A DNA stretch of 64,000 bases from Pasteurellaceae bacterium Orientalotternb1 (GTDB lineage Bacteria; Pseudomonadota; Gammaproteobacteria; Enterobacterales; Pasteurellaceae): positions 1,214,911-1,278,910 of the forward strand of contig CP015028.1 of the NCBI GenBank assembly GCA_011455275.1, in the 5' to 3' direction. This document shows, one piece after another, positions 20,829 to 37,005 of this stretch. Both the position numbers and the translations under genes were made by a program. The stretch's first letter is position 1. Each line of letters starts with the position of its first letter. The notes under the pieces are model-generated. The model was not told the DNA's origin and searched no databases. It worked only from the letters and a program-made list of their open reading frames with translations.

Positions 20829-20955
20829 TTGAGATTACGTGTGCCGAATAAGCCCCCTTGCGATTGTAGCACTGCGAAATGAGAAAGGGAGCTACAACTT
20901 GTTCAACTAAAATGCCTTGCTCTTGTAGGTATTTTAGAAATTGTTTCGGCTTCAC
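20829..20955 (-). pseudogene. hicA: hicA toxin remnant
   Basis: Minus-strand frame from 20955 begins MKPKQFLKYLQEQGILVEQ, a HicA-like N-terminus, but the following sequence loses the HicA core (the conserved His loop is not recognisable) and the frame runs on into hicB in the wrong phase. It is a truncated or frameshifted toxin gene. The exact break is not certain. Confidence 0.5.
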
Positions 20956-21940: not shown

Positions 21941-22219
21941 TTAATGGTAAATCTCTCGGCGGTGTCCGATTTCTAACGCTGTTATCAGTAATTCGCCATT
22001 ATTGATATGGCAGATAATGCGGTAATCGCCTACTCGGTATCGCCACATTCCAGAAAGCTCGCCCACTAAGCCTTTACCCTTATCTCGTGGGTTTTCCAGT
22101 GTGGTTAAGGTTTTAAGATAGTTAATGATTTGTTGGGCTTGTTGTGGGTTTTTCTTGGCGAGCTTTGCTAGTTGTTTTTTAGCGGTTTCCGCTAAGCTGA
22201 CTGTCCAAGTTGAGTTCAT
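21941..22219 (-). CDS. RelE/ParE-family toxin
   Basis: 92 residues with the RelE fold signatures AETAKKQLAKLAKKN, LSGMWRYRVGDYRIICHI and the C-terminal IGHRREIYH. RelE toxins cleave mRNA on the ribosome; ParE relatives act on gyrase. The arginine and tyrosine-rich RYRVGDYRI segment favours RelE. It overlaps the antitoxin gene by 41 bases. Confidence 0.88.
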   Translation of the reverse strand: MNSTWTVSLAETAKKQLAKLAKKNPQQAQQIINYLKTLTTLENPRDKGKGLVGELSGMWRYRVGDYRIICHINNGELLITALEIGHRREIYH

Positions 22220-22424
22220 TCTCGACTTCCTCTAATGAATAGGTTTTCTCTTTGCCTGCACGAACTCGCTCTAATACCGCATTCGCTAATAATAAATCTT
22301 CCAAATCTTCTAAATAGGCTTCAAGGGCTTCTTTGACATAGAAAGATTTTGCTCGCCCTGTTTGAGCAGCAAGATTATCTAAACGTTGTTGCAGTTCATC
22401 AGGTAGTCTTACCGTTAATGCCAT
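22179..22424 (-). CDS. RelB-like ribbon-helix-helix antitoxin
   Basis: 81 residues. N-terminal ribbon-helix-helix (TVRLPDELQQRLDNLAAQTGRAKSFYVKEALEAYL, shown here only by its edges: TVRLPDELQQRL and KSFYVKEALEAYL) and a C-terminal toxin-wrapping tail. The C-terminus extends past the usual end of this family because its frame stays open through the toxin start. Confidence 0.88.
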   Translation of the reverse strand: MALTVRLPDELQQRLDNLAAQTGRAKSFYVKEALEAYLEDLEDLLLANAVLERVRAGKEKTYSLEEVENELNLDSQLSGNR

Positions 22425-22603: not shown

Positions 22604-23527
22604 ATGAAAAAATTATTCTTAGCAACAGCGTTGTCATTAGTTCTAACTGCCTGTGGTGGCGGTGGTTCAGGTGGTGGAAACTCATCAAGCAACAGTAATA
22701 ATGTTACACCACCATCTACAGGACAAAAATCAATAGATTTAGTCTCAGAAGAACTTAAATCTCAAATGAGAGCATTAAAGAAAATCACGTTGGATAATGG
22801 CACGGTATTAGATGTCGCTGAAATGCCAGTAGGCTATTTAGAGCAGAATATTGACACAGGCAAAGTGAAAGGAATCAATGGTGTTTACTACGCTTTTGGT
22901 ACATGGGTTCCTTATAATTTAACTTATAACGAACACGGTTTACCGACAAACCATTCATTATATAATCAACAAAGAGCTGTGGCATATATTACCCAAAAAG
23001 CAGATCTTCCAAAAAGTGGTATAGCTGTCTATGAAGGTCAATCTTTAGGTGCTGCAACTCGTGGTAAATTACGTTTAGAAGTTGATTTCTCCAAACAGAC
23101 ATCAATTACAGGTAAAATTTATGATCGTCGTTTAGATGATGGTCGTTCACTCGCGGATATTAATCTCAAAAGAGGCTATATCGTTACCTTCAGTGAAGGT
23201 GGGTCTGGCTTCAGAGGAGATGCTGACTATCGCGGTGTAAATGGACAGTTTGATGGTAACTTTGTTGGTCCAAAAGCTGAAGAAGTGATGGGACGAGTCA
23301 CTAGAAATGGTGCTGTTTATGTAGGTTTTGGCGGTAAGCGTGGTGAATTGATTGGGGTACAACCATCTGTTGAAATGCCGAAGATAGATACGCCAACAAA
23401 CACTAAACCAGAAATTCCAAATGTAACGGGTATAGAAAAATCACCGAAAGAAATTGTAGATGAAATCAATAAACAATTTCTTGAAAGCCCTTTAACAAAA
23501 GAAATGCTCAACTCGTTATTGAATTAA
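22604..23527 (+). CDS. Surface lipoprotein with TbpB-like beta-barrel domain (Slam-type substrate)
   Basis: AGGGGA (22594-22599) leads to ATG 22604. The 307-residue precursor has lipobox LVLTAC then a Gly/Ser/Asn-rich flexible linker. The C-terminal half (about 155-265) matches the eight-stranded barrel of TbpB lobes: LRLEVDFSKQTSITGKIYD, FRGDADYRGVNGQFDGNFVG, and GPKAEEVMGRV...VGFGGKRGEL. Such lipoproteins are flipped to the cell surface by Slam translocons. No slam, tbpA or receptor gene is adjacent, so the ligand is unknown. It sits as cargo in a prophage remnant. Confidence 0.8.
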   Translation: MKKLFLATALSLVLTACGGGGSGGGNSSSNSNNVTPPSTGQKSIDLVSEELKSQMRALKKITLDNGTVLDVAEMPVGYLEQNIDTGKVKGINGVYYAFGTWVPYNLTYNEHGLPTNHSLYNQQRAVAYITQKADLPKSGIAVYEGQSLGAATRGKLRLEVDFSKQTSITGKIYDRRLDDGRSLADINLKRGYIVTFSEGGSGFRGDADYRGVNGQFDGNFVGPKAEEVMGRVTRNGAVYVGFGGKRGELIGVQPSVEMPKIDTPTNTKPEIPNVTGIEKSPKEIVDEINKQFLESPLTKEMLNSLLN

Positions 23528-23640: not shown

Positions 23641-23880
23641 ATGTTTAATCTGTTTAAACGCCCACTTCATAAAGATAGCTTGGACTCGTGGTGTAAAATT
23701 TTAGATGATGTAGCGAAGGTTGCAATTCTTGCTATTCCTGTTGTACTATATAACGAAACATTATTGGCTTATAAAGTAGCCAATAGTCTATTTCTTGTCA
23801 GTAGTGCTTACCTTTGTTTATTCAGTGCAGATTTTATGCGAAAAAACAAAGCTAAATTAACCAATGAAGAAGGAGAGTAA
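23641..23880 (+). CDS. Small two-helix membrane protein (module copy 1, protein A)
   Basis: ATG 23641 follows AAGGAAA. The 79-residue protein starts MFNLFKRPLHKDSLDSWCKI and has two hydrophobic stretches (about 27-44 and 48-64) joined by a short turn, ending in a charged tail. It is clearly paralogous to the protein at 36720-36950: both share NxFKRP, the LD-W-KI-DD-AKVAILAIPV core and a similar second helix. A 27-codon gene follows directly. Function not recognised. Confidence 0.7.
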   Translation: MFNLFKRPLHKDSLDSWCKILDDVAKVAILAIPVVLYNETLLAYKVANSLFLVSSAYLCLFSADFMRKNKAKLTNEEGE

Positions 23881-23881
23881 A

Positions 23882-23965
23882 ATGGCATTAACAGTCGGTC
23901 TTGGCTTAATTACAATGGCGTTGCTTTTCTTAGCCATTTCATTACAGCATAGTATTAAACATTAA
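23882..23965 (+). CDS. 27-residue hydrophobic peptide (module copy 1, protein B)
   Basis: ATG one base after the previous stop, with AAGGAG ending in the upstream gene. The product MALTVGLGLITMALLFLAIS then QHSIKH is a single membrane helix with a basic tail. The partner in copy 2 (36640-36723) has exactly the same length (84 nt with stop) and layout. Its size, spacing and ribosome binding site argue that it is translated. Confidence 0.65.
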   Translation: MALTVGLGLITMALLFLAISLQHSIKH

Positions 23966-23971
23966 ATTTCC

Positions 23972-24004
23972 AAAAGCCTGTTTACAACGCAGGCTTTTTT
24001 ATTT
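23972..24004 (+). terminator. Terminator after module copy 1
   Basis: AAAAGCCTG (23972-23980), nine-base loop, CAGGCTTTT (23990-23998), then T's. Confidence 0.85.
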
Positions 24005-24078: not shown

Positions 24079-24177
24079 ATGTCTAAATTTGCAGATCCTT
24101 TTTCCTTGCCATTAAAAAAGGATTTGGAAAACTCAATGTCGAGAGGGCGGAGAATACAATACCCGAAAGGGGAATAA
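24079..24177 (+). CDS. Possible 32-residue leader ORF before the BRO gene
   Basis: An open frame beginning MSKFADPFSLPLKKD and ending RRIQYPKGE. No clear ribosome binding site. The 23966-24262 gap otherwise holds a terminator, an uptake-like ACAAGCGG with a T-run, and a short inverted repeat (CCCTATCAAATAGGG at about 24218-24232) that could be an operator or leader hairpin. Confidence 0.25.
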   Translation: MSKFADPFSLPLKKDLENSMSRGRRIQYPKGE

Positions 24178-24262
24178 TCCCAGCCGACTTTTGGCGGCTT
24201 CTGAACCTCTTGACACCCTATCAAATAGGGAAAATTTCAGAAAAAACCAAAAGGAGTCAATT

Positions 24263-24937
24263 ATGACTAATCAAATCACTACTCACACTCAACTTTCTAC
24301 ATTTAACTTTGAAAATTCAGCAATTCGTGTCGTATCAATCAACAATGAGCCTTGGTTTGTTGTCGCGGATCTTTGTCGTGCGTTAGGCTTGTCTAGCCCA
24401 ACAAAAGCTATCTTAAATCTTGATGAAGATGAAGTAGCCCTGAATTCAATTCAGGGCATAAGCAAAGGTAACGATCAAGTAAATATCGTCAGCGAAAGTG
24501 GAATGTACACCTTGATCTTACGTTGTCGTGATGCCGTGAAAAAAGGATCTGTGCCACACCGTTTCAGAAAATGGGTAACAGCCGAAGTTTTGCCACAAAT
24601 TCGCAAAACAGGGCAGTATTCGCAAAATAATCAACGGAACTTACCGCTTGCTGTTGAACAGGACGAAGAAGCACTAAACATCATTGTAAACTTATTCCAC
24701 TCGCTCAACAGTGCTTACGATATGGGCGAGAAACTTCGCACCCAAGCCCCACACCTTGCAAGACAAATCGACAATGAAATCGGCGGGCATTACATCTACA
24801 ACTTGCATATGCCAACCAAACAAGCACTCGAAAAAGCTCGCAAGTTTGTCCACGCAAAAAGCGAGCGGATAATGTTTGTCAAAGGAATGTTGAGCTTGCT
24901 CGAAGAGCCAAAACGCCTAGTTCATACGAACTTCTAA
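24263..24937 (+). CDS. BRO-N domain phage antirepressor
   Basis: AAGGAG (24251-24256) supports ATG 24263. The 224-residue protein has an N-terminal BRO-N domain (IRVVSINNEPWFVVADLCRA, SESGMYTLILRCRDAVKKG, RFRKWVTAEVLPQIRKTG) and a helical C-terminal part. Phage BRO/antirepressor proteins relieve repressor control. It may now be a stand-alone regulator in the remnant. Confidence 0.9.
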   Translation: MTNQITTHTQLSTFNFENSAIRVVSINNEPWFVVADLCRALGLSSPTKAILNLDEDEVALNSIQGISKGNDQVNIVSESGMYTLILRCRDAVKKGSVPHRFRKWVTAEVLPQIRKTGQYSQNNQRNLPLAVEQDEEALNIIVNLFHSLNSAYDMGEKLRTQAPHLARQIDNEIGGHYIYNLHMPTKQALEKARKFVHAKSERIMFVKGMLSLLEEPKRLVHTNF

Positions 24938-25155: not shown

Positions 25156-25488
25156 ATGTCAAATAAAATAGATGAGCTTGACCTAATAACAGTATGTGCA
25201 GATAAGAATACATTAGAATCTAAAGATCCAACGCACTGTGAGCCTAAAGAGAAAGAGGATATTGATTCTAGATACGAAAAGGAAACCGATCTTGGTGGGC
25301 GTGATGATAGTGATAAACCATCTATAAGTAGCTCAAACCATGCAATCAATAGTAGCAAAGTGTCATTGACTAAAAGTGATTCTGATGCAATTAAATCTGC
25401 CGCAAGAATTATTGCGCAATCTCAGGGGAAAGATATTAGGTGGAGAGGGGAGTTAGACGTAGAAAAGATAAGATTTGGAGAATGGTAG
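25156..25488 (+). CDS. N-terminal part of a colicin-like bacteriocin, with TonB-box-like motif
   Basis: AAAGGAG precedes ATG 25156. The 110-residue product is acidic, Ser/Lys/Asp-rich and probably disordered. Residues 9-15 (DLITVCA) resemble a TonB box, as found near the N-terminus of TonB-dependent colicins. Its frame ends TGG-TAG exactly where the pore-domain ORF begins (ATG at 25482 overlaps). One added base at 25483-25485 would fuse the two into a protein of about 350 residues. It is therefore either the translocation domain of a frameshifted bacteriocin or a separate, translationally coupled protein. Confidence 0.6.
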   Translation: MSNKIDELDLITVCADKNTLESKDPTHCEPKEKEDIDSRYEKETDLGGRDDSDKPSISSSNHAINSSKVSLTKSDSDAIKSAARIIAQSQGKDIRWRGELDVEKIRFGEW

Positions 25489-26204
25489 AGACGCAAGCCA
25501 AAAATGGAGACTGGGAAGGTATTCTTAACCACACTCATCAATGTTTATTGAACCCTATGATTGGTTATTCTCAATTAAATATGGAATCTGTTTCTGTTGA
25601 GTCTTATTTACTTGCTCAAGCAAATGCAAAAGAAAAAAGCCACCTACTTGAACATTATGAGGCTGTAAACAATGTTTTATCAGCTTATAAGGATTTGTAT
25701 GAAAAGAAAATTGATGCGAAGTTAGCAAAAGATTTTCAGCAACTTTCTCGGAATTTTACATATTTACCATCTCGTATAAATATGGCTCAAGTCCGCTATG
25801 ATAAATTTATGAATGGTAAGAAATTTATGATTTCAAAAAGTGATCAAAAATTACTTGATGATCTAGTTGCTTTAAATAATTCGGCACAAGTAAAAGAAAA
25901 TGCGAGATCTTTATATAAGGTTGCTAAAGTTTTCGGATGGGGAAGTAGCGTTGTAACCGCTTATGAATTAGCGACCGTTTTCAATAAGTCTCAGGAAACA
26001 GGCGATTGGCGTGAATTTGGAGCAAAAATCAGTCAGCTCGGTTCTAATATGTTAATTGGGCTTATTGTGGGATTTGGTATTACTGCGAGTTCTCTTCCTT
26101 TAGCTATCATCATTGCAGGATTAGGTGTACTTGCATCTAATGCTTTAGATGATAGTTTTTGGCTGAAAATGCAAAATCATACTCAAGGCTATCTTGCAAA
26201 ATAG
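25482..26204 (+). CDS. Pore-forming colicin domain protein (bacteriocin C-terminal part)
   Basis: 240 residues from ATG 25482. The last 180 residues follow the pore-forming colicin domain: amphipathic helices (KSHLLEHYEAVNNVLSAYKD, LAKDFQQLSRNF), the conserved ETGDWREFGAKISQLGSNML segment (compare VTGKWRPFFVKLES in colicin Ia, from memory), a long hydrophobic hairpin (LIGLIVGFGITASSLPLAII then AGLGVLASN) and the terminal ALDDSFWLKMQ. The convergent gene downstream encodes a small membrane protein in the position and orientation of immunity genes of pore-forming colicins; the two overlap by 16 bp. Confidence 0.8.
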   Translation: MVETQAKNGDWEGILNHTHQCLLNPMIGYSQLNMESVSVESYLLAQANAKEKSHLLEHYEAVNNVLSAYKDLYEKKIDAKLAKDFQQLSRNFTYLPSRINMAQVRYDKFMNGKKFMISKSDQKLLDDLVALNNSAQVKENARSLYKVAKVFGWGSSVVTAYELATVFNKSQETGDWREFGAKISQLGSNMLIGLIVGFGITASSLPLAIIIAGLGVLASNALDDSFWLKMQNHTQGYLAK

Positions 26205-26557
26205 TGTTTTACTAAGACAACTAGCGTAATAATTGGGGAAAAAATAGCTCCTATAATTCGGTAGGGCTCACTTTGAATAAGGTGGGCTCTAAACCAATCG
26301 TTGGGGAGCTTCTTTAAATTATGCAATATCCAATAGTATCCAAAAGGAGCAGTTGGAAGGCTGTACCAAAATAATTTATATATATCAACATTATTGATTG
26401 AAAAACGTTGAAGAATAAATTTCTCTACAAGCAAACTAATGATGAGTATTGCTAAATAAGCAAAGAAAATAGTCCAATATTGCTTTTCAGTAATATGGAA
26501 AATATCTAGCAGTTTAATCCACCATTGCGGACGTTGTTTATAAAATGGCGTTGTCAT
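26189..26557 (-). CDS. Putative immunity protein for the pore-forming bacteriocin
   Basis: 122 residues with three hydrophobic segments (about 30-48, 60-78 and 101-118), basic ends and AAAGGAAAT before the start. Size, three-helix topology and opposite-strand placement match the E1/Ia-type colicin immunity proteins, which sit in the inner membrane and block the cognate pore. I recognise no sequence motif, so the call is from context. Confidence 0.7.
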   Translation of the reverse strand: MTTPFYKQRPQWWIKLLDIFHITEKQYWTIFFAYLAILIISLLVEKFILQRFSINNVDIYKLFWYSLPTAPFGYYWILHNLKKLPNDWFRAHLIQSEPYRIIGAIFSPIITLVVLVKHYFAR

Positions 26558-36607: not shown

Positions 36608-36637
36608 AATGAAAAACCCTGCAATCGCAGGGTTAAT
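36608..36637 (-). terminator. Hairpin after module copy 2
   Basis: AACCCTGC and GCAGGGTT pair around GATT just past the 27-codon gene on the minus strand, followed there by TTTTTC. Confidence 0.75.
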
Positions 36638-36639
36638 AA

Positions 36640-36723
36640 TTATTTCACAAAGTGTCTCACCGCCATTGCAATGCCGAATGTTACTAAGGCAAACATTGCA
36701 AGTCCAAAGGTCATACCTGTCAT
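36640..36723 (-). CDS. 27-residue hydrophobic peptide (module copy 2, protein B)
   Basis: Start ATG overlaps the upstream stop (ATGA). The product MTGMTFGLAMFALVTFGIAM then AVRHFVK is one membrane helix with a basic tail, the same 27-residue length as its counterpart at 23882-23965. GAGGAGAT at the end of the upstream gene is its ribosome binding site. Too short for usual gene finders. Confidence 0.65.
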   Translation of the reverse strand: MTGMTFGLAMFALVTFGIAMAVRHFVK

Positions 36724-36950
36724 AATGGATCTCCTCGTAGTTTGGATTTTCTTAAATAGCGGCTAATAAAAAGCCAAAAATATGCTCCGATCAGTAAGAA
36801 AATTGAATTGAGTATTTTCATTAATACGGTTTCATTGCCATAAAGCATAACAGGTATGGCTAGAATTGCAACTTTTGCAATATCGTCTGAAATTTTTGCC
36901 CACGCATCAAGGGTTTCAAATTCAATTGGGCGTTTAAAAATGTTCCACAT
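36720..36950 (-). CDS. Small two-helix membrane protein (module copy 2, protein A)
   Basis: AGGAGG is spaced correctly for the second of two ATGs (36950). The 76-residue protein starts MWNIFKRPIEFETLDAWAKI and contains SDDIAKVAILAIPVMLYGNE, then a second hydrophobic stretch (ILNSIFLLIGAYFWLFI) and a basic end. It is paralogous to 23641-23880. A LexA box lies 40 bp upstream, so expression should rise with DNA damage. Confidence 0.72.
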   Translation of the reverse strand: MWNIFKRPIEFETLDAWAKISDDIAKVAILAIPVMLYGNETVLMKILNSIFLLIGAYFWLFISRYLRKSKLRGDPL

Positions 36951-36989
36951 CATTCCTCCTAAATCGCTAAAATACGGGTTATAATTTTA

Positions 36990-37005
36990 CTGTGTAAATA
37001 TACAG
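36990..37005 (-). promoter_or_regulatory. LexA (SOS) box
   Basis: CTGT-GTAAATAT-ACAG, a perfect CTGT-N8-ACAG core, with outer TA on one side (TACTGT). It overlaps the -35 region of the minus-strand module; TATAAC on the minus strand (about 36983-36978) could be the -10. The divergent pepP starts 87 bp on the other side and might also be affected. Confidence 0.75.

Follow-up and report, generated by a model that had tools for sequence, protein, structure and literature searches.

What is the role of two very small genes that stand in tandem twice within one stretch of bacterial DNA, the first predicted to encode a two-helix membrane protein and the second a one-helix peptide? The stretch, hereafter the window, comprises 64,000 nt of contig CP015028.1 of Pasteurellaceae bacterium Orientalotternb1 and holds one pair on each strand (Table 1). 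Direct reading bears out the two pairs described in the initial annotation: both copies are coding, with ribosome-binding sites (AAGGAA and GAAGGAGAG in copy 1) and a hairpin and T run after each. In copy 2, the stop codon of gene 1 and the start codon of gene 2 overlap as ATGA. Gene 1 of copy 1 combines a conserved half, MFNLFKRPxxxxSLDSWxKILDDVAKVAILAIPVVLY, with a variable helix 2, and its AlphaFold model (mean pLDDT 76.7) contains two long helices, residues 11–36 and 42–68. A read-through fusion of genes 1 and 2 was also modelled (pLDDT 80.8); its contacts were set aside because the linker imposes a topology at odds with the charges of gene 2.

Table 1. Features of the window discussed in the text
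Feature	Position	Strand	Remarks
CRISPR-DR34 repeat	20863–20898	-	36 nt, single and perfect
ParE-type toxin and ribbon-helix-helix antitoxin pair	21941–22424	-	Same prophage remnant as copy 1
Lipoprotein	22604–23527	+	Just upstream of copy 1; PF08794, PF01298
Gene 1, copy 1	23641–23880	+	ATG start; predicted two-helix membrane protein, 79 aa
Gene 2, copy 1	23882–23965	+	ATG start; one-helix peptide of 27 aa, MALTVGLGLITMALLFLAISLQHSIKH, 84 nt with stop
Terminator-like stem, copy 1	23973–24000	+	AAAGCCTG/CAGGCTTT, then T run; direct reading
sRNA-Xcc1 (Rfam)	24138–24222	+	80.0 bits (gathering 53); between copy 1 and antirepressor
Phage antirepressor (Bro-N/Ant)	24263–24937	+	Recurrent neighbour of prophage copies
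ORF with pore-forming colicin domain	25440–26204	+	PF01024, E = 9.8e-7
Opposing ORF	26189–26557	-	122 aa, membrane-protein appearance
Terminator-like hairpin, copy 2	36611–36635	-	AACCCTGC/GCAGGGTT, then T run; direct reading
Gene 2, copy 2	36640–36723	-	27 aa, MTGMTFGLAMFALVTFGIAMAVRHFVK, 84 nt
Gene 1, copy 2	36720–36953	-	77 aa, or 76 from the second ATG
LexA-type box	36990–37005	-	CTGTATATTTACACAG; ~52–55 nt upstream of copy 2 gene 1

A search of the genome aligns the two gene-1 proteins over 73 residues with 51% identity (E = 9.7e-22). A family profile recovers the gene-2 peptides from the same genome at E = 1.7e-7 and 9.7e-7, with an identity between them of only 27%. A recent duplication within this genome was rejected, since in the tree neither copy is the other's closest relative. 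That both second genes measure 84 nt, to which meaning had first been attached, proved a coincidence: across the family, gene 2 encodes about 25 to 48 aa, and what is conserved is the gene arrangement and the helix pattern, not gene-2 length.

A gene-1 profile detects the family in 63 of 140 Pasteurellaceae genomes and 25 of 43 genera, with at most six copies per genome. All 13 positives in an order-wide sample of 395 genomes are Pasteurellaceae, and the family is absent from the other families of the order sampled there. Four residues of gene 1 are invariant in an alignment of 60 proteins (P8, W17, K26, and P33 in copy 1 numbering), and conservation is concentrated in the first half. Of the 88 main-set loci that have an intact gene 1, 87 also have gene 2 after it; the stop codon of the first gene usually overlaps or adjoins the start codon of the second. 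Pooled dN/dS values from 26 close pairs (0.17 for gene 1, 0.21 for gene 2) indicate that purifying selection acts on both genes. Together with the intactness of the pair, this upholds the proposal that it is a functional unit.

Searches of Pfam, NCBIfam, PHROGs, and PDB sequences returned no convincing match for either protein, and the best hit of a PDB fold search had E = 1.4, none being significant; a weak fold match is to be expected of a helical hairpin. No domain, including any for delivery or trafficking, was recognised in gene 1 (~75 aa). Gene 2 is conserved in other genomes and the homologues fall into no known annotated family, as the initial annotation had supposed. The pair is not mentioned in the literature that we searched.

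Genomic settings and promoters

The module occurs in three settings: prophages, ICE-like elements, and the chromosome. Most copies are single and lie between housekeeping genes. Prophage copies adjoin a Bro-N/Ant antirepressor gene (64 nt after it, or roughly 200–800 nt before it), and ICE-like copies follow an ArdC-like gene or small ORFs; neighbours outside the window were assigned by sequence reading, not by family search. No linked secretion gene was recognised among the clustered neighbours. Phage Aaphi23 carries the family, with gene 2 as ORF13 (YP_003952.1, annotated as hypothetical) and gene 1 unannotated just upstream, as do 15 loci in IMG/VR; a plasmid search gave nothing convincing. 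RNA-seq data for A. actinomycetemcomitans phage S1249 (PMC10087258) held nothing usable on the module.

Phage and chromosomal copies are intermixed in a tree of 79 proteins, which argues for repeated moves between settings; a history with only one phage–chromosome transfer was rejected, because four or more label changes are required by well-supported branches. At the glyA site, comparison with relatives that lack the pair places the start of the insert, which brings its own CRP-S element, directly after the upstream stop codon and its end ahead of a palindromic terminator also present in the empty sites.

In the competence regulon, whose known members have been listed, CRP acts at Sxy-dependent sites termed CRP-S elements (PMC5809987, PMC6957337); the pair is missing from the member lists examined in these papers. 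When the regions upstream of gene 1 were scanned for known regulator sites, CRP-S was the single strong signal. With up to two mismatches to TGCGA-N6-TCGCA allowed at −75 to −105 of gene 1, an element precedes 38 of 63 non-redundant chromosomal copies, 11 of them with an exact match, against a background per search window of 1.5% (up to two mismatches) and 0.01% (exact). By this criterion the remaining 25 chromosomal copies (about 40%) have none, nor do any of the 16 prophage or six ICE-like copies; upstream of both copies in the window the best site has four mismatches. Sites for FNR, Fur, sigma-E, ArcA, and OxyR-like regulators show no clear enrichment upstream of the module.

A 22-bp CRP-S motif searched genome-wide in five genomes marks, among its hits, sites before pilA, a comN-type pilin gene, comM, comF, dprA, comE1, rec2, and comA, all recognised by sequence, as well as before copies of the module; a reversed control pattern gave zero matches in the same genomes. 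Motif and spacing are common to the module and pilA, comE1, comM, dprA, comF, and rec2. We therefore predict, from motifs, that CRP and Sxy switch on most chromosomal copies in natural competence. The competence link surfaced in homologous loci and had not been foreseen in the initial annotation. It makes the pair an apparently undescribed, widespread small-protein addition to the predicted competence regulon of Pasteurellaceae, a family that includes textbook transformable species. One gene pair would thereby tie natural transformation to prophages and ICE-like elements, a link relevant to the unsettled question of why DNA uptake exists and how mobile elements react to it.

In the window, the box upstream of copy 2 has the same form as the recA (CTGTATATTCAAACAG) and lexA (CTGTATATAAAGACAG) boxes of this genome. 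A general link of the family to LexA was rejected: an exact box occurs in one of 99 module loci, copy 2, and is therefore treated as a local feature. Copy 2 probably answers to LexA instead of a competence element and, judged by their promoters, both copies in the window are non-competence versions.

A separate observation concerns a genome (G145) in which a CRP-S element lies 92 nt before a 75-aa ORF present in two copies (L302, L310), a possible further uncharacterised competence-regulated gene.

Exchange of helix 2 and gene 2

Copies at orthologous positions in different species were compared, pair by pair, at six chromosomal sites (lgt-gph, glyA, rseC-mobB, sppA, dinG, and tgt). Nucleotide identity is 80–100% in the promoters and 90–100% in the first half of gene 1, drops to 50–78% from around nt 100–140 of gene 1, just after helix 1, and stays low through gene 2. 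Over the same boundary the synonymous difference per site rises from 0.00–0.25 to 0.5–0.8, which shows that a diverged allele has replaced the earlier one; relaxed selection does not account for the difference. After gene 2, identity returns to 83–100% at five of the six sites; the exception is sppA, with a second, displaced gene 2 downstream and no return of identity. Distances in the 3′ half of gene 1 and in gene 2 correlate with r = 0.82 among pairs with near-identical 5′ halves, and with a partial r of 0.50 across all loci (0 of 999 permutations). These comparisons indicate that the 3′ half of gene 1 and gene 2 are replaced together as one cassette, a joint replacement that could partly reflect tract length because helix 2 and gene 2 are adjacent. 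A constant half with a swappable helix and partner offers directly testable allele-specific pairs of very small membrane peptides.

Replacement can leave a trace. At the sppA-side locus of one genome (G081), a new gene 1 and gene 2 are followed by a second intact gene 2, which matches the gene 2 resident at this site in another genome (G084) with 99% identity; in a third (G080), the old gene 2 alone is intact. Further tandem or lone intact copies of gene 2 exist. In total, gene 2 is intact without an intact gene 1 in about 20 places and the reverse holds in about three, in counts not corrected for the ancestry that several cases share. This excess is suggestive of a toxin and its antidote and is no proof of one, because gene 1 is a 2.7-fold larger target.

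Individual lone copies occur at other sites. In two species of one genus, an oligopeptidase-like gene has an intact gene 2 on its own downstream (L230 in G067, L232 in G061), and a relative has the complete pair at apparently the same site (L155 in G065). Between rseC and mobB, several species of genus g7 (L127, L137, L139, L149, and L284) have a broken gene 1 with an intact gene 2 and, for the most part, an intact CRP-S element.

Candidate functions

Among the roles first put forward for the pair (membrane toxin and antidote, phage defence, membrane stress), toxin and antidote is best supported, by cassette replacement and the orphan gene 2 copies. We tentatively favour, as a reading a little short of probable, a polymorphic membrane effector encoded by gene 1 with a matched one-helix antidote encoded by gene 2, because the cassette and orphan pattern resembles effector-immunity loci and because competence-driven toxin-antitoxin operons have precedents. 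To our knowledge, a 27-residue membrane peptide has no close precedent as an antidote. Killing of other cells is not indicated because no export signal is evident.

In the effector-antidote reading, gene 1 would form a short hairpin in the inner membrane, its N-terminal half constant (an amphipathic segment and helix 1) and its helix 2 variable; the single helix of gene 2 would pair with helix 2 in the membrane and keep gene 1 harmless. We infer membrane insertion and orientation, toxicity of gene 1, and its neutralisation by gene 2, as well as induction of most chromosomal operons by CRP and Sxy during competence. Homologous recombination, presumably following transformation, would exchange helix 2 and gene 2 as one cassette and sometimes leave the old antidote behind, and prophages and ICE-like elements would carry versions devoid of the competence switch. 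The likeliest benefit, speculatively, is addiction: transformation that deprives a cell of the module, or leaves it with a mismatched one, would lead to arrest. In its fullest form, this describes a self-protecting membrane addiction module of transformable bacteria, switched by competence, with a helix and antidote cassette that spreads by transformation and is borrowed by prophages and ICEs, perhaps resisting removal by transformation; we regard that form as unlikely.

Sxy-regulated toxin-antitoxin operons are exemplified by toxTA of H. influenzae and hicAB of E. coli (PMC6957337). Like the module, toxTA (HI0660-HI0659) is an accessory two-gene CRP-S operon of Pasteurellaceae, and it has the toxin first, as would the module if gene 1 is the effector (PMC6957337). 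ToxT and ToxA, however, are soluble proteins of RelE/ParE-like and HTH type, unrelated in sequence to the two predicted membrane proteins, and the module differs in that its alleles are exchanged as cassettes. More broadly, no sequence relation to known toxin or antitoxin families was found in Pfam, NCBIfam, or PHROG. Displaced immunity arrays at type VI effector-immunity loci of V. cholerae, likewise a naturally transformable host, arise in a similar manner: a cassette of effector and immunity gene recombines in and the old immunity gene stays downstream (PMC5361080). In contrast to these arrays, the module has no linked secretion system or delivery domain, and its variable unit is one helix and a 27-residue peptide. 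CDI and Rhs polymorphic toxins also combine a constant N-terminal part with a variable C-terminal part and a co-changing partner gene (PMC3482391), whereas gene 1, at 75 aa, has no trafficking domain and a toxicity that we infer.

The main rival, which we consider somewhat unlikely, is a two-subunit inner-membrane complex that blocks or gates DNA passage, used by prophages against superinfecting phage and by the chromosome in the competent state, with the DNA-uptake channel at work; its target specificity would lie in variable helix 2 and gene 2. Such a DNA-entry or superinfection-exclusion device would fit the presence of the module beside the antirepressor in lambda-like prophages, Aaphi23 among them, and in ICE-like elements with an ArdC-like gene, and paired variation suits two interacting subunits. 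The small two-helix proteins T4 Imm and HK97 gp15 are inner-membrane superinfection-exclusion proteins of phages, comparable in size with gene 1 but without detectable sequence relation to it; as far as we know, proteins of this type are not linked to competence and have no obligatory one-helix partner. Known exclusion-protein families gave no convincing PHROG or Pfam match and no significant PDB fold match. Moreover, retention of a lone intact gene 2 is unexpected for a mere subunit, and competence control would set the device against DNA uptake.

Alternatively, the module could be an accessory to or a brake on DNA uptake, its prophage copies acting as inhibitors that shield the prophage from removal by transformation. 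It has the CRP-S promoter in common with the uptake genes, and prophages are known to counter transformation (PMC12637031). However, the module is found in under half of the Pasteurellaceae genomes, the rapid replacement of its alleles is unlike the conserved uptake genes, and several of its loci are decaying, which makes this role quite unlikely. Ordinary stress-response membrane proteins that acquired their promoters (CRP-S, LexA) at random would account for the LexA-type box of copy 2 and for the other promoters of prophage and ICE copies but are very unlikely, as chance does not explain CRP-S at a fixed spacing in 38 of 63 chromosomal copies scattered over many sites and cassette replacement is atypical of such proteins.

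The prophage remnant around copy 1

Copy 1 is of the prophage type. The remnant that surrounds it holds integrase pieces and antirepressor, holin, endolysin, and spanin genes; a flanking att duplication was looked for and not found. The position of the sRNA-Xcc1 match directly upstream of the antirepressor suggests a possible regulatory RNA of that gene.

The region around copy 1 contains several further features. The lipoprotein gene next to copy 1 encodes factor H binding protein/TbpB-type barrel domains and has a PHROG of its own. The CRISPR-DR34 repeat overlaps an ORF of the remnant, and Rfam finds no second one between 18800 and 38000. A ParE-type toxin gene is paired with a ribbon-helix-helix antitoxin gene. 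Finally, the ORF with the colicin domain and the opposing ORF beside it, a plausible immunity protein, sit just before the phage holin, endolysin, and Rz genes, and the remnant may work as a bacteriocin-and-lysis cassette.
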